31,818 nucleotides of DNA, from positions 1-31,818 of the IMG/VR virus record IMGVR_UViG_3300048839_000838. The stretch is one strand, 5' to 3'. Below the pieces are notes generated by a model that was given only the letters and a program-made list of their open reading frames with translations, did not search any database and was not told the DNA's origin. Origin of the DNA: a virus. Shown one piece after another: positions 15,811 through 29,942 of this stretch. The position numbers and the translations under genes were made by a program. Numbering within the stretch: the first letter of the stretch is position 1; each line of letters begins with the position of its first letter.

Positions 15811-16040
15811 TGGCGTGCGGCGGCTGCGGCAGGATGGCGCGCGGCGTCGCCGGCATCACGCGGGCCGCCGTCGGCGTTGGCACCGGCTCGCACGCGATGG
15901 TCGAGGCACGGCGGGCGGTCTGCCGGAGCTGCGAGCACAACACGGGGACGCGGTGCACGGTCTGCAAGTGCTTCCTGCGCCCGAAGACGGCCCTGAGATC
16001 CGAGCGCTGCCCGCTCGGCAAATGGAGTGACGAACGATGA
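15810..16040 (+). CDS. Small zinc-ribbon-like protein
   Basis: A 76-residue protein with two CxxC groups (CGGC near the start and CRSC in the middle), then CTVCKC and a final CPLGKW. The pattern CxxC...CxxCxC...K...CPxxKW occurs in small zinc-binding proteins often found in tail or head regions of siphoviruses; I cannot name the family surely. The ATG at 15810 overlaps the previous stop (TGATG), and its stop overlaps the protease start (ATGA). The longer upstream frame is rejected because it would lie over the cysteine-rich gene. Confidence 0.75.
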   Translation: MACGGCGRMARGVAGITRAAVGVGTGSHAMVEARRAVCRSCEHNTGTRCTVCKCFLRPKTALRSERCPLGKWSDER

Positions 16041-16708
16041 CCATGCCGACCCTCGAAACCCGACGCTGTCGGGCTGATCTGACGATCGAGACCCGTGGGG
16101 ACGGGAAGACCCGGCTGAAGGGCCGGGCGCTCGTCTACGGCGGGCTCTCGCACGACCTGGGCGGCTGGCGTGAGCGCTTCGCGCCCGGCGCAGTCCGACG
16201 CTCCGTGCAGGAGATCGCCAACGACCGCGACCCCGACCTGCTCTTCCTGGTCGAGCACGACTGGGGCCGGATGCTCGGGCGCACGAGCTCCGGCACGCTC
16301 GAGCTGCGACACGGCGACGACGGGCTCGGCTTCGTCCTCGACGTGCCCGACGTCACCGACGGCCGCGACCTGATGGCCTTCGTGCGCCGCGGGGACATGC
16401 GGGCGATGTCGTTCCAGTTCCGCGCGGTGTTGACGGACTGGACCGAGGAGGAGATCGACGGCGAGATCGTCCAGGTGCGCACCGTCGTCGACGCCGACCT
16501 CTACGAGATCTCGGCGGTCCACTCGCCGGCGTACCCGCAGACCATGCTCCAGGCAGCGAGCCGGCAGCGGGCCGACGTCGCCGCCGAGCTGGTCGAGCGC
16601 GACCCGGCGTTCCGGGCGCAGGTCGAGGCCGAGCTCGCCCGCCGCCGCATCCCGAAGGACGATCTCCGGCGGCTCGACGCGATCCGCGCCCTCCAGGTGG
16701 CGGGCTGA
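16037..16708 (+). CDS. HK97-family prohead protease
   Basis: This serine protease cleaves the capsid delta domain during head maturation. The 223-residue protein has the family order: GRALVYGGLSHDLGGWRERFAPGA, with H74 in LVEHDWGRMLGRT, S125 in MRAMSFQF, and the DLYEISAVHSPAYPQT segment (third catalytic residue probably E157). Length and motifs are normal and intact. The place is not: in HK97-like genomes this gene lies between portal and capsid, whereas here it is about 10 kb after the capsid gene, among tail genes. It is coupled to the zinc-ribbon gene by ATGA. Confidence 0.92.
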   Translation: MTMPTLETRRCRADLTIETRGDGKTRLKGRALVYGGLSHDLGGWRERFAPGAVRRSVQEIANDRDPDLLFLVEHDWGRMLGRTSSGTLELRHGDDGLGFVLDVPDVTDGRDLMAFVRRGDMRAMSFQFRAVLTDWTEEEIDGEIVQVRTVVDADLYEISAVHSPAYPQTMLQAASRQRADVAAELVERDPAFRAQVEAELARRRIPKDDLRRLDAIRALQVAG

Positions 16709-18515: not shown

Positions 18516-18591
18516 GGCGGGTTTCGGAGAGCAGCAGCAGCTCGCCGGGCTCATATCCCGGAGGTCGCGGGTGCGAATCCCGCCCCTGCCA
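18516..18591 (+). tRNA. Initiator tRNA-Met(CAT)-like sequence, probably imperfect
   Basis: The 3' part folds well: D stem GAGC/GCTC (18529-18532 with 18540-18543), anticodon stem CCGGG/CCCGG with loop CTCATAT (anticodon CAT at 18552-18554), variable AGGTC, T stem GCGGG/CCCGC with loop TGCGAAT, then CCCTGCC and discriminator A at 18591. The three stacked G:C pairs in the anticodon stem are the hallmark of initiator tRNAs, and the D stem equals that of E. coli tRNA-fMet. Defects: a possible 5' acceptor strand GGCGGGT (18516-18522) pairs 6 of 7 but stands 6 rather than 2 bases before the D stem, the D loop lacks GG, the T loop has G for the usual second T, and no CCA is encoded. It may be a degenerate tRNA or a tRNA-derived attachment site. 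Confidence 0.55.
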
Positions 18592-20822: not shown

Positions 20823-20834
20823 GGAATCAAAGAA

Positions 20835-20881
20835 TCGGGCTGAGAGGATTCGAACCTCCGACCTCCTGACCCCCAGTCAGG
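20835..20881 (-). other. 3' half of tRNA-Pro(GGG): putative attP core
   Basis: On the minus strand the sequence folds as a tRNA 3' half: anticodon stem CCTGA/TCAGG around loop CTGGGGG (anticodon GGG at 20874-20872), variable AGGTC, T stem GGAGG/CCTCT with the standard loop TTCGAAT, acceptor strand CAGCCCG and discriminator A. Bases further 5' (20882-20910) do not give a proper D arm or acceptor partner. A tRNA 3' half beside an integrase gene, with its own terminator, is the classical structure of an attP that restores the host tRNA gene on integration. The host tRNA-Pro gene is therefore the predicted attB. The initiator-tRNA-like element at 18516 is the alternative. Confidence 0.65.
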
Positions 20882-20982
20882 ACGCCCACCACAAGCCGGC
20901 CGAGCAACGACAACGACTTGCGCCGACCTCCGCGCGGATGCGCCCCCGTGGCGCCCCCAAAACGCGTTGGTCTACGACGCCT

Positions 20983-21234
20983 GTGACGGCTGTCCCGGTC
21001 GTGCGGGCGCCCCTGCGCCCCCGCGCCGGCGCGGTCGCCAACCTGCGCAGGAACGGCATCGCGCTCGGCTGCGCCGCCCTCGGCACGGCCGCCGGCTGCG
21101 TCCTCCTCGACGCCGGCTGGGTCTCCGTCGTCCTGGTCGCCGCGTCCTGCGCGACGATCGGCACGCTCGTCGCCGAAGCCGGCGAGCTCGCGGGCCTCGT
21201 CTCCTGCGCCGGGCAGGGAAGGGGGCAGGGATGA
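20983..21234 (+). CDS. Small two-helix membrane protein
   Basis: From the GTG at 20983 the product is 83 residues with a basic start (RPRAGAVANLRRNG) and two hydrophobic segments (IALGCAALGTAAGCVLL and WVSVVLVAASCATIGTLV). There is no clear RBS, but the stop overlaps the ATG of the next gene (ATGA at 21231). It opens the gene run after the integration site. Function unknown; small membrane proteins at this place can act in superinfection exclusion, which is only a guess. Confidence 0.6.
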   Translation: MTAVPVVRAPLRPRAGAVANLRRNGIALGCAALGTAAGCVLLDAGWVSVVLVAASCATIGTLVAEAGELAGLVSCAGQGRGQG

Positions 21235-21614
21235 GGAACACCACGACCACGATCGGCGATGCATCGACGTCGCCGGATTCGCTCGAGTTCCCGCCGTTCC
21301 CGGACCTGCCATCGTGGGCTCTTGCGCACGAACGCCTCGAGCGCATCGAGCGATGGCTCATGGCTGTCCGCGACATCTCTCCGGGATGCCCGTCGGGGCG
21401 GACTATGCCGATCGCGGCATGGGTGGCGTCGTGCGTTGCCGTCGTCGTCGAGCACGCCGAGGAGCTCGACGACTACGTCCGTCGGGTCTGTGGAGCGGTC
21501 GCGAAATGCGGCTGCTGCAGAGCCGCCGAGCTTCAAAGCTTGATGCTGGCGGCGTTCGCTGCGACGGTTCTCATCGCTCCTGCGTCGACTGCTTCGAAAG
21601 GCGGTGCGGCATGA
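21231..21614 (+). CDS. Unknown early protein
   Basis: A 127-residue protein with Ser/Thr/Pro-rich start (EFPPFPDLPSWALAHERLERI), a hydrophobic stretch (PIAAWVASCVAVVVEHAEEL), a CGCC group and an Ala-rich hydrophobic C-terminus (LMLAAFAATVLIAPAS). The start overlaps the previous stop and has GGGAAGGGGGCAGGG before it. It ends with the residues KGGAA, encoded by AAGGCGGTGCGGC, a variant of the junction repeat seen at 24-25.7 kb. Family not recognised. Confidence 0.65.
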   Translation: MRNTTTTIGDASTSPDSLEFPPFPDLPSWALAHERLERIERWLMAVRDISPGCPSGRTMPIAAWVASCVAVVVEHAEELDDYVRRVCGAVAKCGCCRAAELQSLMLAAFAATVLIAPASTASKGGAA

Positions 21615-21955
21615 CGGAGCGCCTGACCGTTCCCGATCAGCCGACCTCGCCGGCGGGGCTCGAGCGATGGGCCGTCGACGTCCGGTCGATGCTCATCGCC
21701 GCGAGCGACGACGATCGTCGCGTGATGCTCGCCGACCTGCGCCGTCGCGGACTGCTGAGCGTCCGGCGCGAGTACGCCCGCGCGTCGCGTCGGATGGTCG
21801 AGCTGCTCGGCGTCGCCGACCGCTGCGGGCTGCTCCCGCCGATCTCGGAGGAGTTCCGGCTCGTCTCCTACCGCTGGCTCGTCTGCGGCGAGCTCCTCGA
21901 CGCGGTGAACACCTACGACGACCGGAAGGCCGACGCGAAGGGGGGTGCCGCGTGA
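21611..21955 (+). CDS. Unknown early helical protein
   Basis: A 114-residue, mostly helical protein (DDDRRVMLADLRRRGLLSVRR, and YRWLVCGELLDAVNTYDD). The ATG overlaps the previous stop. It too ends in KGGAA, followed by a GTGA junction. No family recognised; the arginine-rich helices might bind nucleic acid. Confidence 0.65.
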   Translation: MTERLTVPDQPTSPAGLERWAVDVRSMLIAASDDDRRVMLADLRRRGLLSVRREYARASRRMVELLGVADRCGLLPPISEEFRLVSYRWLVCGELLDAVNTYDDRKADAKGGAA

Positions 21956-22554
21956 GCGTGACCCTACTCGACTCCGTCCGCCTCATCCTCGAGATGGACC
22001 TGCGCGGGCTCGTCCCCCGTGCGCACCCGCGGGGACCGATGCCGCGGGCGGTCAAGGCCGTCTGCATCGTCATCCTCCTCGACCAGGCGGAGTGGGCGGA
22101 CGGCGTCGCCCGACTCCACGTCGCCAGCATCGCCCAGCTCGCCGGCGAGCATCAGGTTGAGGTCCTCCGCGTCCTCGCCTGGCTGCGCCGGTTCGGCGTG
22201 CTCGAGATCTACGCGGCGCGGAAAGACCTCAGCCGGTGCCGGACGGACCTTGCGGCGTGGCGGCGATGGCGGCTCGACATCGAGCGCCTCGTCGAGGCCT
22301 GCCGCACCGTCGAGCTGCGCCGTGCCGCCGTCGGCCGCCGCCAGTTCGCCCGAGCGCAGGCGGCGGCGGCCTCGCACGCGGGCGAGTACGACGGTGATGC
22401 CGGCGGAGATCGCCAGCAGCCAGAGCGAGGGCGGGGGAAGCGTGAAACGGTACGGCTCGAGCATGCCGCCAATGGTGGCGCAGCCCGGAGGCCTGCTGTG
22501 ACGGGATTCCGCGCGGAATCATCACGGCGAATGGCGAGAGGGGGCGGGCGATGA
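21952..22554 (+). CDS. Winged-helix-like protein upstream of the replication initiator
   Basis: A 200-residue protein starting at the GTG that overlaps the previous stop. Residues of about 40-90 (VKAVCIVILLDQAEWADGVA, then VASIAQLAGEHQVEVLRVL and LRRFGVLEIYAARKDLS) fit a winged helix-turn-helix: helices, a recognition helix and a wing. The C-terminal half is Arg/Ala-rich and of low complexity. It is coupled to the initiator gene (ATGA at 22551), so it may be a replication accessory or a regulator. Confidence 0.65.
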   Translation: MSVTLLDSVRLILEMDLRGLVPRAHPRGPMPRAVKAVCIVILLDQAEWADGVARLHVASIAQLAGEHQVEVLRVLAWLRRFGVLEIYAARKDLSRCRTDLAAWRRWRLDIERLVEACRTVELRRAAVGRRQFARAQAAAASHAGEYDGDAGGDRQQPERGRGKRETVRLEHAANGGAARRPAVTGFRAESSRRMARGGGR

Positions 22555-23474
22555 AGATGCAGGAGCTGAGTCCCTGGATCGACGCGGTCGCCGCCGCCGA
22601 CCTCACGCCGACGGCCCGGCATGTCGCCTTGACGCTGGTCCGCTGGACCGACGACCGGCTCGAGTGCTTCCCGGCGGTCGCGACGATCTCGCGGCTGACC
22701 GGCCGGAGCCGTCGGGCGGTGCAACTTGGCCTCGCCCAGCTCCGCGCATCGGGTCTGCTCGAGGTTGTGCGGCGGGGTGGAGGTCGGGCGCTCTCGACCC
22801 TGTACCGGCTGAGGCCAGACGCCGGGAAACAGCGCAACGCGTGCGCCGTATCGCAGCCCGAAACAGCGCAAAGTCGAGCCCGAAACAGCGCAAAACCGCG
22901 CACCGGAAACAGCGCAACCAGTGCGCCCGAACCATCCATCCATCTGAACCAATTCAGAGAACCTCCGGAGCGCGTGCGCACGCGACGGGAGTCGGCGCGC
23001 CCGGCGCGATCGGACCGGCCGGAGGGGATCAGCTCGCAGGGGCGATGGATGGATGGCCGGAGCCTGCAGCGACCTCGCACGTCGCCGCCTGCTCCGCCTG
23101 CTGCGTCGTTCCGGCTCTCGGAGGCCGATCGGGCACCGGAGACGAGAAACGCCGCAGAGGCGAACGACGGGCCTCTGGCGGCGCGGTCGGAGCTGAGCCG
23201 CTGCGGCGTCTCCGGGCCGATGCTCGACCGGCTCGTCGGAGCCGGCGTCACGCTCGGCCAGGTGCGCGAGGCATGGGGCTCGATCGCCCGGGACGGGAAG
23301 GTCCGCGACCGCGCGGCCGTGCTCGTCCGCAGGCTCGCGCCGGCCTCGGGCATCCGACTCGACCGGCCCGCCTCGATCGACCCGGCGCTCGCCCGTGCGG
23401 CCCGACTGATCGAGTCGCGCCGGAGGGACCTCGCCCGCTCGCGGTGCGGGGAGCTGGTGGAGGCGGTGGCATGA
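22551..23474 (+). CDS. Replication initiator with N-terminal HTH (lambda O-like)
   Basis: A 307-residue protein. Residues of about 15-90 form a helix-turn-helix domain of the HTH_36 type (LTPTARHVALTLVRWTDD, FPAVATISRLTGRSRRAVQLG, then LRASGLLEVVRRGGGR and LYRL), as in many phage replication initiators. A disordered middle (about 92-210) carries four DNA iterons in its coding sequence, and a C-terminal helical domain (VSGPMLDRLVGAGVTLGQVRE) may bind a helicase or loader. This matches lambda O and relatives, in which the origin lies within the initiator gene. No separate helicase or DnaC-like loader gene is recognised nearby. The stop overlaps the next ATG. Confidence 0.75.
   Translation: MKMQELSPWIDAVAAADLTPTARHVALTLVRWTDDRLECFPAVATISRLTGRSRRAVQLGLAQLRASGLLEVVRRGGGRALSTLYRLRPDAGKQRNACAVSQPETAQSRARNSAKPRTGNSATSAPEPSIHLNQFREPPERVRTRRESARPARSDRPEGISSQGRWMDGRSLQRPRTSPPAPPAASFRLSEADRAPETRNAAEANDGPLAARSELSRCGVSGPMLDRLVGAGVTLGQVREAWGSIARDGKVRDRAAVLVRRLAPASGIRLDRPASIDPALARAARLIESRRRDLARSRCGELVEAVA
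22826..22957. other. Predicted replication origin: four iterons and an AT-richer inverted repeat
   Basis: GAAACAGCGCAA occurs four times in the same direction at 22826-22837, 22860-22871, 22882-22893 and 22906-22917, with start spacings of 34, 22 and 24 bases (near two or three helical turns). Copies two and three share the 18-mer AGCCCGAAACAGCGCAAA. Directly after them comes the most AT-rich stretch of the gene, with a CTGAA/TTCAG inverted repeat (22944-22957). This is the arrangement of lambda ori: iterons in the initiator gene followed by an unwinding region. Confidence 0.75.
22932..23056. repeat. 13-bp inverted repeat around the AT-richer segment
   Basis: CCATCCATCCATC (22932-22944) is the exact reverse complement of GATGGATGGATGG (23044-23056), 99 bases apart. 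The arms are themselves triplicate 4-mers. It flanks the segment after the iterons and could form a large stem-loop or be a pair of binding sites in the origin. Confidence 0.55.
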
Positions 23475-23872
23475 GCCGGCGTGCGAGCACTTGGGAAGAC
23501 GGCCGCTGGTCGTGGGCGCATTGCGGCGCAGAAGTTTGGACCCACGATGCCGTTGATACACGCGAGGAGGCGATCGAGGCTGGGCGTGAGTGGGCAGAAT
23601 CGGCTGGCGTGATGAACTTCGCGGTCGGGCGATGCTCGCGGGTGAAGCCTCGCGTCAGGGCGAACGCGCTCGACTTTGCGATCGAGATGCTCAACGAGGA
23701 TGCCTACCACGAGTGCGGCGAGGCCTCTGAACTGTGGCCGGACCTCTCCGGGGACGACGTCCGGGAACTTGAGGCGGTCGTATCTGACTGGGTTCTCGCG
23801 AGGGCGAGGGCGATCTTCACGGTCGTGGACATCGAGGAGTTGTGGTTGACGCAGGACGGCGGTGGCCCATGA
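23471..23872 (+). CDS. Unknown early protein
   Basis: A 133-residue acidic protein (WSWAHCGAEVWTHDAVDTRE; then ALDFAIEMLNEDAYHECGEA; C-terminus VVDIEELWLT). A helical centre with DFAIEMLNEDAYHECGEASE and a later WVLARARAIF fits a small phage family that I have seen only as hypothetical. The ATG overlaps the initiator stop in GGAGGCGGTGGCATGA, and its own end GGCGGTGGCCCATGA (coding GGGP) is another variant of the repeated gene junction. Confidence 0.7.
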   Translation: MSRRASTWEDGRWSWAHCGAEVWTHDAVDTREEAIEAGREWAESAGVMNFAVGRCSRVKPRVRANALDFAIEMLNEDAYHECGEASELWPDLSGDDVRELEAVVSDWVLARARAIFTVVDIEELWLTQDGGGP

Positions 23873-24105
23873 CCCAGCGCACCGACCCGTCGATGACGCG
23901 CCCGCAGACGTTCCACGATCTCGACCTCTGGCGGCGATCCGACCCGCTCACCGCCGGGGACATCTCGGATGAGGTCGTCGGTCGCGTGGAGGCCGCTCTC
24001 GGTGCCGGCTCCGGCGCGTGGGACATGCTCGATGCGCGCGAGGTGATTGCCGCAGCGTGGAACGAAGTCCGTGCCACGATGCCGGCGGAAGGCGGTGGCG
24101 CGTGA
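23869..24105 (+). CDS. Chimeric short protein sharing its N-terminus with the gene at 25677
   Basis: A 78-residue protein. Its first 24 residues (…RTDPSMTRPQTFHDLDLWRRSDP) are almost those of the 117-residue protein at 25677, and the DNA is about 94% identical over 70 bases. After residue 26 the sequences differ completely: here the rest is an unrelated acidic helical part (DISDEVVGRVEAALGAGSGAW) that ends in AEGGGA. It looks like a gene start joined to a different body by recombination. Function unknown. Confidence 0.65.
   Translation: MTQRTDPSMTRPQTFHDLDLWRRSDPLTAGDISDEVVGRVEAALGAGSGAWDMLDAREVIAAAWNEVRATMPAEGGGA
23878..23947 (+). repeat. Duplicated gene start, copy 1 of 2
   Basis: About 66 of 70 bases match 25686-25755, in the same direction and reading frame. 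The match starts just after the start codon of each gene and stops sharply at the codons for DP. It is a direct repeat suitable for homologous recombination that would delete the 1.8 kb between. Confidence 0.85.
24087..24105 (+). repeat. Gene-junction repeat GGAAGGCGGTGGCGCGTGA, copy A
   Basis: This exact 19-mer encodes the end EGGGA-stop of the upstream gene and provides GGAAGG as ribosome binding site, 9 bases before the GTG of the next gene; TGA and GTG overlap. Exact copies occur at 24641 and 25662 and one-mismatch copies at 24871 and 25342. Confidence 0.9.
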
Positions 24106-24659
24106 GCGATCAGAGAACCGTCGTTGTCGCCGGCATCACGCGCAGCGGGCTGTCGGTGACGATGCAGATGCTCCACGCCGGCGGCTTCCCATGCGTCGGA
24201 TCTCCGCCGGCGTTCGAGGAGTTCCCGGTCGGAAAGATCCCGTGGGGCGATTGCGCCGGGAAAGCCGTGAAGCTGGTCGATGCCCATCTCCAACTTCCGC
24301 AGCCGGGGCGATACCACGTCATCACTCCTCGTCGCCTGCTGCGCACGCAGGCAAAGAGTTGGAACAGGTTTGCCGGCGTGCTGTTCGGCATCCAGCCCGC
24401 CGACGAGGCTCGCATCGTCGAGTCGTTCACCCGCGACTACGCGACGATCGCGGCATGGGCTCGGCGTCAGGAGAGCCGTTGCTACCTGAGCTTCGGGACA
24501 CTCGTAACCCAGCCGCGGGCGGCGGCCGAACACCTTGCGGCATCGCTGGGCGTCGATCTTGACATCGACGCGATGGCCGCTGTCGTGCGCCCCCGCGGGC
24601 CGGGGCTGCATCCGACCCTGCTCGAGCTCGAGATGGCCGAGGAAGGCGGTGGCGCGTGA
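24102..24659 (+). CDS. Sulfotransferase-like P-loop protein
   Basis: A 185-residue protein starting VVVAGITRSGLSVTMQMLHA near residue 7, which fits the G-x-x-R-S-G-x-S/T phosphosulfate-binding loop of sulfotransferase-like P-loop proteins. It also has the relatives' GKAVKLVDAHLQLPQPGRYH and VITPRRLLRTQAKS segments (the second corresponds to the usual 'R.l.e...S' region). The family normally uses PAPS to sulfate glycans or small molecules, but many bacterial members are uncharacterised and could be kinases. At 185 residues it is short, lacking part of the usual C-terminus, and it ends in EEGGGA at junction copy B. A cargo gene that modifies a host or phage surface is plausible; that is inference. 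Confidence 0.65.
   Translation: MSDQRTVVVAGITRSGLSVTMQMLHAGGFPCVGSPPAFEEFPVGKIPWGDCAGKAVKLVDAHLQLPQPGRYHVITPRRLLRTQAKSWNRFAGVLFGIQPADEARIVESFTRDYATIAAWARRQESRCYLSFGTLVTQPRAAAEHLAASLGVDLDIDAMAAVVRPRGPGLHPTLLELEMAEEGGGA
24641..24659 (+). repeat. Gene-junction repeat, copy B (exact)
   Basis: Exact GGAAGGCGGTGGCGCGTGA. It ends the sulfotransferase-like gene with EGGGA-stop and gives the RBS and GTG of the repeat-protein gene. Confidence 0.9.
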
Positions 24660-25360
24660 GCGAGGTCATCACCTACTTCGGCGAGGACGATGGCGACTCG
24701 ATCGCCGTCGATTGGTTTCCTGATCCCGTCGATCCAGGTGTGGTCATTTCTGTGCTGGAGAACTTCGGCCAGACACGACCAACCGAGGTGATGGTTTGCG
24801 CCACCGTTCGACTCTCGTCTGCCGCTGCTCTCCGGATCGCGGCCGAGATCATCGAGCGACTCGGGCCGGCGGAAGGCGGTGGCGCGTGCGTCCTCAACGA
24901 CCTGACGGTGGTCGGCCTGATCGAGAAGGCCGAACTTGCTGGGGCCGGCGAGCAAGTGCGCGCCGCCATCCGCGCGTGGTATATCGAGCATCCGGCCGCG
25001 ACGGTGGCCGAGGCGGCACGCGCAATGCCGAATGATGTGGGGTGGATCGCCTACTTTTCCTCTGATCTGACGGCTGAACAGCGCTTCGCGCTCGCGATGG
25101 AGACTGCGCCGGAGTGGCGCGGTTTGGTCGCCCGCGACGCTCACGACCTGACGGCAGAGCAGCGGGTGGCGCTCGCTCGCGAGAGCTCGCCTGGATGGCG
25201 TGGCATGGTCGCGTACAAGGCTCCGGGTCTGACAGCGCATGAGCGGTTCATGCTTGCTCACGAGAGCACGCCGGAGTGGCGAGGGTTGGTCGCCGAATGG
25301 GCACTCGACCTGTCCGACGAGGAGCGCGCAAGCCTGATGGCGGAAGGCGGTGCCGCGTGA
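24656..25360 (+). CDS. Fused gene with three 27-residue tandem repeats, unknown function
   Basis: A 234-residue protein in two parts. Residues 1-77 (MSEVITYFGEDDGDSIAVDW to AEGGGA) have the size and ending of a separate gene, because they finish with junction copy C. There the expected TGA is TGC (Cys78), so translation continues into a second part (VLNDLTVVGLIEKAELAGAG). Residues of about 137-217 are three tandem 27-residue repeats of the form DLTAEQRxALAxESxPxWRG plus LVA, with a partial fourth. The last residues are AEGGAA at junction copy D. The repeats are predicted helical pairs and could be an interaction solenoid. I recognise no family. Confidence 0.7.
   Translation: MSEVITYFGEDDGDSIAVDWFPDPVDPGVVISVLENFGQTRPTEVMVCATVRLSSAAALRIAAEIIERLGPAEGGGACVLNDLTVVGLIEKAELAGAGEQVRAAIRAWYIEHPAATVAEAARAMPNDVGWIAYFSSDLTAEQRFALAMETAPEWRGLVARDAHDLTAEQRVALARESSPGWRGMVAYKAPGLTAHERFMLAHESTPEWRGLVAEWALDLSDEERASLMAEGGAA
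24871..24889 (+). repeat. Gene-junction repeat, copy C, stop lost
   Basis: GGAAGGCGGTGGCGCGTGC differs from the exact copies only in the last base (TGA to TGC), which removes the stop codon. The frame then continues as one fused gene. The overlapping GTG remains but opens only a short, noise-like frame. Confidence 0.88.
25064..25330 (+). repeat. 81-bp tandem repeat, three copies and a partial fourth
   Basis: Units at 25064-25144, 25145-25225, 25226-25306 and a partial copy from 25307. The period is exactly 81 bases, so frame is kept. The DNA has diverged more than the protein: L-T-x-E-Q-R, L-A-x-E and W-R-G-x-V-A are kept, which points to selection on the protein. Confidence 0.88.
25342..25360 (+). 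repeat. Gene-junction repeat, copy D (one mismatch)
   Basis: GGAAGGCGGTGCCGCGTGA. It encodes EGGAA-stop for the repeat protein and provides RBS and GTG for the gene at 25357. Confidence 0.88.
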
Positions 25361-25680
25361 AGCGATGGTTACGCTGCCGGAAGGCTCGATCCGTCAGGAA
25401 GGAGCGACAGCGCCTCGGCCGCTGTGTCGTCCGTTCCGACGCCGAGAACAACGAGGGGCTCCTCCGCCGCGCGATCATGGACACTGGGTTCGTTACCCGG
25501 ATCGACGTTGTGACCGGGATCCGCGGATACGTCCAGGTCGATTTGCACGACGGCTGGTACACACTCGTCGGTTGGACACGCGGAGGTAGTTTCCGTTCGA
25601 CAGCCGAGCAACTCCGGGAGGCGATGCGCCGCGTCGTCGCATACCGGAAGCGGCAGATCCGGGAAGGCGGTGGCGCGTGA
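25357..25680 (+). CDS. Small basic protein, unknown function
   Basis: A 107-residue protein with a very basic start (KRWLRCRKARSVRKERQRLG) and a small beta-rich domain (VTRIDVVTGIRGYVQVDLHD, WYTLVGWTRGGSF) followed by a helix (RSTAEQLREAMRRVVAYRKR). It ends in REGGGA at junction copy E. The strand-strand-helix part looks like a compact fold, and the basic start might bind DNA or RNA. Family not recognised. Confidence 0.65.
   Translation: MKRWLRCRKARSVRKERQRLGRCVVRSDAENNEGLLRRAIMDTGFVTRIDVVTGIRGYVQVDLHDGWYTLVGWTRGGSFRSTAEQLREAMRRVVAYRKRQIREGGGA
25662..25680 (+). repeat. Gene-junction repeat, copy E (exact)
   Basis: Exact GGAAGGCGGTGGCGCGTGA, the last copy of the series. It joins the small basic gene to the winged-helix gene at 25677. 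Confidence 0.9.
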
Positions 25681-26030
25681 ATCCCCGCACCGATCCCTCG
25701 ATGACGCGCCCGCAGACCTTCCACGACCTCGACCTCTGGCGGCGATCCGACCCGCCGACGAGCCGGGCGGCGGGACGGGAGATCCGCGGGAAGCTCGCGC
25801 ACCTGCACCGCGTCGCGCTCGACCTGGTCGAGCGATTCCCGGGACGCACCGGCCAGGAGCTCTCCGCGCTCGCGGAGATCGGCGACCCGCGCACGATCAA
25901 CCGTCGCCTCGGCGAGCTCGAGAAGTTCGGCCGCCTGGTGCGCGGTGAGCCGCGCGCGTGCGAGATCACCGGGCGCGCCGCGGCGACGTGGTGGACGACC
26001 AGCAGCAGCAACGGAAGGAGCTCGCGATGA
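25677..26030 (+). CDS. Winged-helix DNA-binding protein
   Basis: A 117-residue protein. After the N-terminal segment shared with the gene at 23869 comes a helix-turn-helix with wing: VALDLVERFPGRTGQELSAL, EIGDPRTINRRLGELEKFG and RLVRGEPRACEITGRAA. This fits the wHTH of small phage regulators in which the 'T-I-N-R-R-L-x-E-L' helix reads DNA. It starts at the GTG of junction copy E. It is a candidate excisionase or regulator. The copy here appears complete, while the one at 23869 has lost the wHTH. Confidence 0.75.
   Translation: MNPRTDPSMTRPQTFHDLDLWRRSDPPTSRAAGREIRGKLAHLHRVALDLVERFPGRTGQELSALAEIGDPRTINRRLGELEKFGRLVRGEPRACEITGRAAATWWTTSSSNGRSSR
25686..25755 (+). repeat. Duplicated gene start, copy 2 of 2
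   Basis: Partner of 23878-23947 (about four mismatches in 70). This copy belongs to the longer gene with a full winged-helix domain, so it is likely the source copy. Confidence 0.85.
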
Positions 26031-27148
26031 CGAGGATTCACTGGCCCATGGCGATCGGACGAACGACCGTGCACGACGTCGCACGCGCGCAGATCACGCG
26101 GTTGCCCGACTTCCCGCGCGACGCGGTCGAGCCCGAGGCGATCGAGGCGTGGGAAGAGACGTTCGGCACCATGGCGGAGCAGATGCGATCGGACGTCGGT
26201 GAGGAGGCCGAGCAGGCGGAGCGGCGGCGCATCATGCAGCGCGACCGTTCAGCGATCGTCCAGGCGGCGGAGGCGCTCGTCACGCGGCCCCGAGACGCGG
26301 CTGCGTGGTCCACGGCCGCGAACATGCTCCGAGGCGTCGCCAAGATCGAGCCGCCCGAGAGCGAGCTGCCCCCGATGCCGATCACGCTCGAAGAGGCGGA
26401 CCTCGTCCGCTGGGCCGGGAGGTTCCACGGGCGGCTGCGCGCCGGTGGCCGGTGCCTCGCCGACCTCGATGAGTGGCTGCGCGTCGAGGCCGGAAACCTT
26501 CGCCGATGGGCGGCCCTCCTGACCGCGAGGCCGGTGCGATTCGATTCGCAGGCCGGATTCCTGGCCGGATCGGTGAAGACCTCGAGTCCCCAGTGCGTCG
26601 CTCAGGCGGCGAGCCGACTGCTGGGCGCGTACGGACTCGTCGTCGAGCTGTTGATGCGGCGTCTGTGCGGGGACGAGAGCGGCCGACCGATGACGAAACT
26701 GTCCAGGCACCTCGCTATTGCCTCGATCGGCGACGGTGAACGCGCGGTGCTGCGCCGGCTTTACGACAGGCGGGACGCAGAGATGGCGCTTCCGGTGAGC
26801 GTCAGCGGAGCGGATCGCGTGCACGCCCTGCGCCTCGGCAGGGCTGGCTTCGCGAAGGAGTGCGACGCCGGATGGAAGATCACGGGGGAGGGCAGGCGCT
26901 TCCTCGAGGAGTCCGAAGTCGAGCCCGTCCGGATCGTCGAAAGTGATGTCGCGGTTCTGCGGCTCATCATTGGGCAGGGCCACGGCAGACCGGCGAGCTG
27001 GTGCTGGGTGAGCCCGGAGATCGCTGAACACGTCCTGAGGCTCGTCGACGCCGGGTACGCGGAACGCGGGGCGTACGGCGCGCGCGCCACCAGCGCCGGC
27101 ATCGCGTTCATCACGCGGCTTGATGCCGAGGAATGGGGTGGGTCGTGA
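26027..27148 (+). CDS. 373-residue early protein with possible C-terminal wHTH pair, unknown
   Basis: The ATG at 26027 has a very good RBS (GGAAGGAG ending 7 bases before) and overlaps the previous stop. The N-terminal 110 residues are helical and acidic. A middle part (DLVRWAGRFHGRLRAGGRCL) follows. The C-terminal third has two similar helical units with winged-helix spacing (HLAIASIGDGERAVLRRLYD … HALRLGRAGFAKE, and VAVLRLIIGQGHGRPAS … VDAGYAERGAYGARAT), each with a 'L..aGy/f' element seen in MarR-like wings. I cannot name a family. The gene lies among replication and recombination genes. Confidence 0.65.
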   Translation: MTRIHWPMAIGRTTVHDVARAQITRLPDFPRDAVEPEAIEAWEETFGTMAEQMRSDVGEEAEQAERRRIMQRDRSAIVQAAEALVTRPRDAAAWSTAANMLRGVAKIEPPESELPPMPITLEEADLVRWAGRFHGRLRAGGRCLADLDEWLRVEAGNLRRWAALLTARPVRFDSQAGFLAGSVKTSSPQCVAQAASRLLGAYGLVVELLMRRLCGDESGRPMTKLSRHLAIASIGDGERAVLRRLYDRRDAEMALPVSVSGADRVHALRLGRAGFAKECDAGWKITGEGRRFLEESEVEPVRIVESDVAVLRLIIGQGHGRPASWCWVSPEIAEHVLRLVDAGYAERGAYGARATSAGIAFITRLDAEEWGGS

Positions 27149-27300
27149 TCCCGCCGCAGCAAGTGCAGGAGTTGGCCGACCTCCTCCGCGTGGCCCTCTT
27201 CCTGGGCATCGCCATCGGATTCGCGTTCATCGGGTACTGGATCGGTGGGCTCGGATGCGTGATCTGGTCGGCGTGGCGCGGACGGAGGGCCGGGCGATGA
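27145..27300 (+). CDS. 51-residue membrane protein
   Basis: Too short for usual ORF cut-offs but coupled on both sides: the GTG overlaps the previous stop (GTGA, 27145-27148) and the TGA overlaps the next ATG (ATGA, 27297-27300). The translation begins VIPPQQVQELADLLRVALFL and has a hydrophobic run through GIAIGFAFIGYWIGGLGC, then a basic end (WRGRRAGR). It predicts one long or two short membrane helices. Function unknown. Confidence 0.65.
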   Translation: MIPPQQVQELADLLRVALFLGIAIGFAFIGYWIGGLGCVIWSAWRGRRAGR

Positions 27301-27749
27301 TCGAGACCCAATCGACCCAGACGCCGTCGATCCCGCGCACGCAGATCGAGGCTCCGTTCGATGCGGAGCGGGTGATCGTCGAGAAGTGGCTCGACGGCGT
27401 CGACGCCTACGCCAAGGCGCGCACGCGCGCCGACGGAGAGCCGCTGATCTGGGATGAGGTCATCGCCGGCGAGATGCGACGGCTGCAGGTGGAGAACCGC
27501 AAGATCAATCGCGAGCTGCGCGACGCGACGAGACGAGTCGAGATCCTCGAGCACTGCTGGCAGCAGGCGCTGCGTGTGGAGGAGCGCCTCGGTCGCGAGC
27601 GGGCTGCCCGCGCCATGATGCGCGAGCACGCCGAGCAGATCGTCGCTGAGCTGCGTGAGCACGGGGATGCCGACAAAGTCGGCCGAGCCAGCCGTGGGCG
27701 GATCATGCAGCTCCTCGACAAGATCATCGACTGCGTGGCCCTGCCGTGA
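27297..27749 (+). CDS. Coiled-coil early protein
   Basis: A 150-residue protein. From about residue 55 it is a long charged helix (MRRLQVENRKINRELRDATR, then VEERLGRERAARAMMREHAE), strongly coiled-coil. The N-terminal 50 residues are polar. It overlaps both neighbours. Likely a dimer; role unknown. Confidence 0.7.
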   Translation: MIETQSTQTPSIPRTQIEAPFDAERVIVEKWLDGVDAYAKARTRADGEPLIWDEVIAGEMRRLQVENRKINRELRDATRRVEILEHCWQQALRVEERLGRERAARAMMREHAEQIVAELREHGDADKVGRASRGRIMQLLDKIIDCVALP

Positions 27750-28105
27750 TCCCCGCGCTCACCATCGAGGAGTGGCGCACCGACGCCGGCGTGCTCGTCG
27801 GCTGGCGCCTGCTGCTCGGCGCCGGCGACGTCTACCTCGTCTTCGACGACCAGAAGCAGATGCCCGGCGTGCGCCTCGGGGAGAGCTTCAAGGACGCTGC
27901 GCGGGCTCTGCGGTCCCGCGAAGTCTTCGTCGGCGGCGATACCCGGTCGCTGCTCGAGGAGCTCCGGGCGACCCAGGCCGAACGCGACGAGCTGCGGATG
28001 CGCGTGCGGGCGGGGCAGGCGGCGGCGTCGAACCCGACTTGTGGACCCCAGATCTCTGACGCGCTGGCGGCGCCGGCTCCGGCCGGCGCCGCCGGCGGAA
28101 CCTGA
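27746..28105 (+). CDS. Unknown early protein
   Basis: A 119-residue protein starting at the GTG that overlaps the previous stop. The first half is beta-rich (TIEEWRTDAGVLVGWRLLLG, DVYLVFDDQKQMPG), then a helix (DTRSLLEELRATQAERDEL) and an Ala/Pro-rich end. Family not recognised. Confidence 0.6.
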   Translation: MIPALTIEEWRTDAGVLVGWRLLLGAGDVYLVFDDQKQMPGVRLGESFKDAARALRSREVFVGGDTRSLLEELRATQAERDELRMRVRAGQAAASNPTCGPQISDALAAPAPAGAAGGT

Positions 28106-28899: not shown

Positions 28900-29193
28900 A
28901 TGCGCGACGACAAGCGAGGACCGACCCGGCGCGAGATCGAGGCGCTGGTCGTGATCGTGGAACACCGCCGCCGCACGGGGGTCTCGCCGATGATGGCGGA
29001 GCTCGGCGAGGCGCTCGGCTGCCGTGCGAGCTGGGCGCACGTGCTCACCGTGCACCTGCGCCGGATGGGGCTGCTGCGCTCCTCCGCCACGGGCACCACC
29101 GGGCAGCTCTGGCCGACCGAGCAGGGCACGGCGCTCGCGGAGCAGGTGCGCGCCGCGGCGCGGACGGGGCGCGGATCGACGTCCCCGGCGTGA
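28900..29193 (+). CDS. LexA-like winged-helix regulator
   Basis: A 97-residue protein that is essentially one winged helix: REIEALVVIVEHRRRTGVSP, MMAELGEALGCRASWAHVLT, then HLRRMGLLRSSATGTTGQLW. The 'rrtGvsPmmaElgealG' helix pair is like the N-terminal domain of LexA. There is no LexA protease domain, so it is a stand-alone DNA-binder. GAGAGGAGGCGCAGGG precedes the ATG. It opens the block leading towards the terminase genes, so it may control late genes. It is the best repressor or late-regulator candidate in the window. Confidence 0.7.
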   Translation: MRDDKRGPTRREIEALVVIVEHRRRTGVSPMMAELGEALGCRASWAHVLTVHLRRMGLLRSSATGTTGQLWPTEQGTALAEQVRAAARTGRGSTSPA

Positions 29194-29216
29194 GCACGTG
29201 CGCGCACGATGAGGGC

Positions 29217-29942
29217 ATGACGCTCTTCTTCCGTGGCCTGCGGGCCGCATCTTGGACCGCCGCCGCTGCCGTCGCCCTCGCGGGCGGCGGCGCGGCCGCG
29301 TCCGGACCCGCCATCGCCGCCGCCGGCGCGGCAATCTCCGCGACTCCGATCGAGGTGGAGGCGTTCCGCACGACGTGGACGAACGACGTGGGCGCCTTCT
29401 CCGTCGCGCCGCAGCTCGAGCGGTGGCCGAGCCTGGACTCGCTGCTCGGCGTCGAGCTGCGACTGACCGGCGGCACGGTCGCCGCCGAGTTCTGCTCCGA
29501 GAATCCAACCGCGATCGACGGCTGCATCGGCGTCGGGCTCGCTGCCTGGGGCTTCGGCCTGCTCTCGAGCGACGACGGCCCGCTCGCCGCGTGCGGCGAC
29601 CTGGACGGCGTCGACTGCGTCGAGCTCGAGGCGGTCGACGTCCAGCGCTCGACGTCGCTGCTCCCGCGCGAATGGTTTGCCGGGGACGGCCTCGCAGGCG
29701 TGTCGCTCGCTGCCTGGTATTCCTGGCCGGTCTTCGACGCGGCCGGCGAGTACGTCTACCCGGTGCTCGTGGACGTCCACGAGGCCGGCGGGACGCTGAC
29801 CGTCGTCTACATCGTCGAGCCGGACCTCGACGGCTCCGGCCTCGTGGACTTCGGCGATCTCACCGCGGCTCTCGGCGACTGGGGCGGGCTCTGCAGCTTC
29901 GACTTTCTCGTCGAGCTGCTCGCCCGCTGGGGCGACGCATGA
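29217..29942 (+). CDS. Secreted protein with C-terminal dockerin-like calcium motif
   Basis: A 241-residue protein with a signal peptide (LFFRGLRAASWTAAAAVALA, cleavage after about residue 27), a beta-rich body with several cysteine pairs, and a C-terminal DLDGSGLVDFGDL followed by TAALGDWGG. The D-x-D-x-S/D-x-x-D-x-x-D-L loop with a W-G end is the calcium-binding dockerin-like repeat common at the ends of planctomycete secreted proteins. A second half-repeat lacking the loop ends the protein (FDFLVELLARWG). ATG 29217 is chosen because the signal peptide begins there; a GTG at 29190 overlapping the previous stop is the alternative. The motif probably comes from the host. Confidence 0.75.
   Translation: MTLFFRGLRAASWTAAAAVALAGGGAAASGPAIAAAGAAISATPIEVEAFRTTWTNDVGAFSVAPQLERWPSLDSLLGVELRLTGGTVAAEFCSENPTAIDGCIGVGLAAWGFGLLSSDDGPLAACGDLDGVDCVELEAVDVQRSTSLLPREWFAGDGLAGVSLAAWYSWPVFDAAGEYVYPVLVDVHEAGGTLTVVYIVEPDLDGSGLVDFGDLTAALGDWGGLCSFDFLVELLARWGDA

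Follow-up and report, generated by a model that had tools for sequence, protein, structure and literature searches.

A repeated stop/Shine-Dalgarno-like/start sequence inside coding sequence joins an array of small early genes in a 31.8-kb virus record

Background

It has long been asked whether phages become mosaic by recombination at short shared boundary sequences or by random breaks that selection then retains (PMC3233612). The known cases nearest to the locus described here are the boundary sequences of lambdoid phages and a gene pair from mycobacteriophage cluster I (PMC3029335, PMC3233612). The lambdoid sequences (Susskind and Botstein 1978; Clark et al. 2001, for HK620), to the extent that they are cited in PMC3029335 and PMC3233612, are short, common to gene boundaries, and were proposed to direct mosaic exchange. 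In the cluster I case, Island3 genes 67/68 compared with Brujita have 60 bp in common at the 3' end; unrelated proteins carry the same C-terminus, and the stretch between two copies may or may not hold a gene (PMC3029335). This pair is a closer precedent than the start-associated sequences (SASs) of cluster K mycobacteriophages, a repeated 13-mer with an SD-like core that occurs in the non-structural half, at starts of genes from different families and mostly where intergenic gaps exceed 50 bp (PMC3203893).

Two other arrangements share features with the locus. In the lambda nin region, small accessory genes are chained downstream of the O replication gene, many of them by overlapping stop and start codons. 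Kroger and Hobom reportedly described this region in 1982 as a chain of interlinked genes. Early cassettes of enterobacterial temperate phages (ASCH, DUF1382, MT-A70, DksA-like; e.g. in Klebsiella phage RothC) have 4-nt overlaps and GGNA-stop/SD/ATGA joints, with homology edges at some of these.

Results

The window, by which we mean the whole stretch of 31,818 nt that was analysed, is a linear virus record (31.8 kb, 71% GC) encoding terminase, portal, major head, tape measure and integrase proteins, and we propose that it represents a temperate, siphovirus-like phage. A head maturation protease-like protein (phrog_80; 16037-16708) is encoded downstream of the tail genes, away from the portal and major head genes, and a tRNA-Met gene (18516-18591) is situated between the structural genes and the integrase. 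A tRNA-Pro (20834-20903) stands just after the integrase, ahead of the early region; its identity to genomes of the presumed host class (96%) is confined to about 54 nt, the pattern that an att site in a tRNA gene would show. At 29190-29942, a secreted-looking protein without a PHROG match displays a dockerin-like motif (DLDGSGLVDFGDL), recognised by eye. On the strength of this motif and of the tRNA-Pro identity, the host is presumed to belong to the Phycisphaerae.

The early genes, from 21231 to 28105, are linked in a chain by 4-nt RTGA overlaps (the early genes and joints detailed below are all on the plus strand). Three genes without a family match (21231-21614, 21611-21955 and 21952-22554) precede a lambda O-like replication initiator (22551-23474; HTH_36, phrog_391). 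As in a nin-type chain, overlapping small genes lie downstream of this O-like gene. These comprise a small gene of phrog_1672, whose function is unknown (23471-23872), the small gene 23869-24105, a 185-aa gene with a weak sulfotransferase-like match below the Pfam cut-off (24102-24659), a 234-aa gene (24656-25360), a 107-aa gene with no assigned function (25357-25680) and a 117-aa gene of phrog_1123 (25677-26030). The window genes that were scanned included no recognisable recombinase.

Within 1.6 kb of this chain (24087-25680), the 19-mer GGAAGGCGGTGGCGCGTGA occurs five times with at most one mismatch, three copies being exact (24087, 24641 and 25662) and two differing at one position (24871 and 25342), while shuffled sequences gave a mean of 0.09 copies and a maximum of 1. 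A further copy, with three mismatches, is found at 23854. The initial annotation had placed the five copies at these same positions and had taken each to be at once the end of one gene, the ribosome binding site (RBS) and the GTG of the next. This anatomy was found in four of the five, which are GTGA junctions proper, combining the 3' end of one ORF (EGGGA-stop or EGGAA-stop), an SD-like stretch and, via a 4-nt overlap, the GTG of the next ORF. Thus, the exact copy at 24087-24105 ends gene 23869-24105 (AEGGGA-stop) and supplies the SD and GTG of gene 24102; the exact copy at 24641-24659 ends gene 24102-24659 (EEGGGA-stop) and does the same for gene 24656; the one-change copy at 25342-25360, of the GGAA-stop form, ends gene 24656-25360 and starts gene 25357; and the exact copy at 25662-25680 ends gene 25357-25680 (REGGGA-stop) and starts gene 25677. 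The fifth copy, at 24871, ends in GTGC and the ORF reads through it, so that the initial observation of the array as a whole is confirmed in part. The looser forms said to end genes at 21614 (SKGGAA-stop), 21955 (AKGGAA-stop), 23474 (VEAVA-stop) and 23872 (QDGGGP-stop) all proved to be real RTGA junctions, as is one more at 22554 (ARGGGR-stop). The sequence around the copies is mostly unrelated, the match extending a few bases further in some pairs (24/24 nt for 24081/24865; 29/32 nt for 24078/24632), and all exact repeats of at least 20 nt in the window fall within the joint array or its 94-nt duplication. Hence, a short sequence is common, within one genome, to four joints and one relic with different genes on each side.

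In the frame of the upstream gene, the joint reads GAA GGC GGT GGC GCG TGA and contains an in-frame Shine-Dalgarno sequence, AAGGcGGTG, in that gene's last codons, one synonymous change away from the anti-SD complement. The 3' end of 16S rRNA is AAGGAGGTG, and AAGGCGGTG in the joint is its complement save for a single base, the third of a Gly codon. For random 18-mers the SD duplex energy is -5.1 kcal/mol, while the joints reach about -11 to -12 kcal/mol, and a suitably spaced SD lies inside the upstream gene, as in translationally coupled RTGA overlaps. We infer that the joints act as RBSs in the window phage. C-termini of the form [K/E]GG..A-stop follow once Gly codons are combined with a 4-nt overlap and a good SD, and this form is open to convergence in any phage; the SD within the upstream gene accounts for the general form of the joint, not for the near-identity of its copies.

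Two features of the array bear on how the copies came to be so alike. The first is a 94-nt duplication with arms at 23854-23947 and 25662-25755 (88% identical), each consisting of a joint and the first 26 codons of the gene that follows, 23869 and 25677, respectively. The homology begins at the joint and ends after codon 26, and the remainder of gene 23869-24105 is unrelated to gene 25677; gene 23869 is thus a chimera that has, on a different body, a joint and the N-terminus of a 25677-like (phrog_1123) gene. As phrog_1123 relatives mostly align only from about residue 20 onward, most of the N-terminus common to the two genes is not a family feature.

The second is the copy at 24871-24889, in which TGA is changed to TGC. 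The ORF continues through it as AEGGGAC..., codon-position GC is alike on both sides in the frame of ORF 24656-25360, and the GTG within the copy opens no coding-like frame. This copy is a relic inside a fused gene and not a junction. The fused gene (24656-25360; 234 aa) carries the relic near residues 73-78, and its C-terminal part contains repeats of about 27 aa (DLTAEQR...PEWRGLVA; 25066-25294). As this copy forms no junction, RBS selection does not account for it, and yet its region 24865-24888 is identical to 24081-24104. The route to the fusion is not straightforward, given that a gene overlapping via GTGA would have been in another frame. The duplication that starts at a joint and the relic joint both indicate that joints were copied, and since the remaining flanks are largely unrelated, the pattern is one of mosaic joints.

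The explanation that competes best with copying is convergence alone, whereby a 4-nt overlap that includes an SD of the form AAGGNGGTG would impose Gly-Gly near the C-terminus, codon preference would settle the other positions, and unrelated genes would each arrive at the 19-mer on their own. In 257 Gb of genomes, the exact 19-mer had 11 matches, about 5 of which look like chromosomal operon joints (two in Phycisphaerae-named records), and convergence therefore contributes. Likewise, among the IMG/VR matches listed for RAAGGCGGTGSCGCRTGA, 94 of 122 lie where both ORFs stay open over a long stretch, and the genes on either side are diverse. When three spacer positions were allowed to vary, G predominated at the first and the other two were variable. 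In many phages, the pattern thus turns up where unrelated genes meet, and a global motif inherited as a single element was rejected, as the spacer varies freely. Against convergence as the whole explanation, the 248 genomes surveyed from the presumed host class yielded only 26 near-matches to GAAGGCGGTGGCGCRTGA, or ~1 per 40 Mb, compared with five in 1.6 kb of the window, a host-background argument that leans on the presumed Phycisphaerae assignment. Neither this count nor the 11 exact matches bears out the possibility, raised in the initial annotation, that the 19-mer is simply common in the host. Moreover, a position model built on 238 SD-bearing joint candidates from the presumed host class gave a probability of 10^-7.5 that two independent joints agree at 15 nt, the relic is free of RBS selection, and the 94-nt duplication begins at a joint. 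Convergence is real in general and insufficient for the window array; taken alone it was already disfavoured, and we regard it as unlikely.

Close relatives of the array were sought in several collections. IMG/VR contained no exact 19-mer and no relatives of genes 23471 and 24102, while the 17-nt core followed by ATGA or GTGA was present in 48 stretches, with one copy each. By tblastn in phages, gene 23471 gave only weak Bacillus phage matches, and genes 25677 and 24102 gave none. Prophages of the presumed host class with related terminases had neither early genes in common with the window nor such an array; no array was seen in thirty terminase-related virus records, nor were comparable repeated joints in prophages with phrog_1123 relatives. 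Exact AAGGCGGTGCCGCATGA was found in eight records of annotated phages, representing about five phages. Among the records examined, no relative shared the early genes of the window, and no filled/empty site was seen for its own array.

Gain, loss and exchange of genes at such joints could be followed in other phages, mostly of other hosts, whose loci were for the most part picked by motif and carry sister joints rather than the exact 19-mer. Wherever two same-strand copies of AAGGCGGTNNNGCRTGA lay less than 4 kb apart in the IMG/VR loci, the interval was exactly one gene, starting in the first copy and stopping in the second (21/21 intervals). At least two copies were present in 19 of 226 motif-picked loci, and none of 80 terminase-picked loci had any. 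One locus (L031) holds a single gene between two copies; two others (L030 and L051), about 93-95% identical to it beside at least one side of the joint, lack the gene and have just one copy. The protein of this cassette we take to be a C5 DNA methyltransferase. Similarly, a 62-aa gene of the DUF1382 kind present in L310 is replaced by one joint in L221, L224, L231, L242 and L298, and Klebsiella phage RothC has the same filled order as L310, ASCH-DUF1382-DksA. In a swap, L072 and L093 have flanks in common, with an ASCH cassette in one and a methyltransferase-like cassette in the other, and similarity stops within about 3 nt of the joints. The GGAA-stop/RBS/ATGA joint was seen at many different genes in diverse phages of IMG/VR (L006-L125, L206-L311), the genes it bounds including DNA methyltransferases, ASCH and DUF1382 proteins. 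A recT gene adjoins two of the comparator regions.

A motif-independent search of E. coli genomes was made with 400 nt on either side of one joint (positions 401-417 of the query). In the 14 records retrieved, matches to the upstream gene end at 417 in five and matches to the downstream gene begin at 399 in two, while seven have no edge at the joint and begin at 480/483, inside the downstream gene; several records are near-duplicates, leaving about four independent lineages with edges at the joint. The alternative neighbours there are an MT-A70 methyltransferase, a DUF1382 gene and a hypothetical gene. In E. coli ECONIH4 (L489, 668-1237), an HNH endonuclease ends in IEFKRVEGGAA-stop, with 37 nt identical to the end of the query ASCH gene. 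This HNH protein and an ASCH-type protein of E. coli E2348/69 (L486, 895-1608) have the last 11 residues and the joint in common, and comparison of the two revealed no further convincing similarity.

Discussion

In contrast to the lambdoid boundary sequences, as these are known from their citation, the window joint is embedded in coding sequence and combines stop, SD and start. The Island3/Brujita case differs in being a single pair with a longer repeat, to which the passages of PMC3029335 that deal with it ascribe no SD or start role. The initial annotation had likened the repeat to the SASs of cluster K; this analogy is loose, as the window joint has a different sequence and sits in 4-nt overlaps, not in gaps of >50 bp, and the window matches the SAS 13-mer GGGATAGGAGCCC just once, with one mismatch, where 0.85 such matches are expected; this match, on the minus strand, falls within a tRNA. 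Unlike the window, lambda is free of exact direct repeats of at least 13 nt between O and Q and hence shows no repeated joint. The enterobacterial early cassettes carry a sister motif, AAGGCGGTGCNGCATGA, usually in one to three copies per locus. What is new here is a boundary sequence inside coding sequence that doubles as stop, RBS and start, and literature searches, in which coverage of subscription journals was thin, returned no earlier description of this joint.

Overall, the locus is probably an early-operon array of small accessory gene cassettes with boundary sequences inside coding sequence. The codons that end most of the array genes would serve simultaneously as their own C-terminus, as the SD of the next gene and, through GTGA, as its start, and each cassette would bring an RBS for whatever follows. 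Because a cassette carries the RBS of the next gene, one gene could be inserted, deleted or exchanged between joints with both neighbours still translated. Selection for an SD that fits into Gly codons where two genes overlap by 4 nt would dictate the form of the joint, and the near-identity of the copies would stem from local recombination, including duplication, gain or loss of cassettes and one fusion that left the relic. The suggestion, made at the outset, that the repeat may favour insertion and swapping of cassettes accords with the chimeric and the fused gene in the window and with gain, loss and swap elsewhere, and so holds mainly by analogy. We infer that the window's own cassettes moved by gain, loss or exchange at the joints, and the joint itself was presumably used as homology by recombination, rather than marking random breaks kept by selection, although a similar picture would be expected from random breaks if only those were retained that leave both neighbours translated. 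Phage annealing proteins, acting through short-homology recombination, offer a plausible route (PMC3945230).

Selection for something other than ribosome binding might also keep the copies alike, if a protein or RNA bound the 19-mer as a phage-specific regulatory site and co-regulated translation of the array. The identity does reach past the SD pairing region, and the SASs offer a precedent for a start-site sequence conserved beyond rRNA pairing (PMC3203893). However, one copy is a relic within a coding region, the sister joints differ in their spacer, no regulator was identified and no known RNA family overlaps the array (cmscan of the window returned two tRNAs only), and we give this explanation little credence. 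An artefact of assembly or of recent tandem duplication in a metagenome-type contig, which might be suspected of a single virus record with no close relatives found, is very improbable, given that the genes between the joints are unrelated, the flanks lack wider homology except for the 94-nt duplication, and reading frames and codon-position GC are coherent.

Returning to the cassette array as the preferred reading, we can extend it only tentatively, to a proposal that may well prove too broad: an in-frame stop/RBS/start linker, AAGGNGGTGNNGCRTGA, might end each single-gene cassette across temperate phages of many hosts, act as the recombination site and keep both insert and neighbours translated, and so spread itself as a plug-in grammar of which the window array would be the largest example among the loci examined.

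Conclusion

The boundary between genes emerges from this analysis as a candidate functional unit, in which a C-terminus, an RBS and a start are held within 19 nt. Its copies can be counted, one of them is a relic, and other phages provide filled/empty sites and swaps, so that the two models of mosaicism become directly testable. The joint provides a sequence handle for accessory cassettes such as DNA methyltransferases, ASCH, MT-A70, HNH and DksA-like proteins, and it offers a reason why unrelated phage proteins can have C-termini in common.
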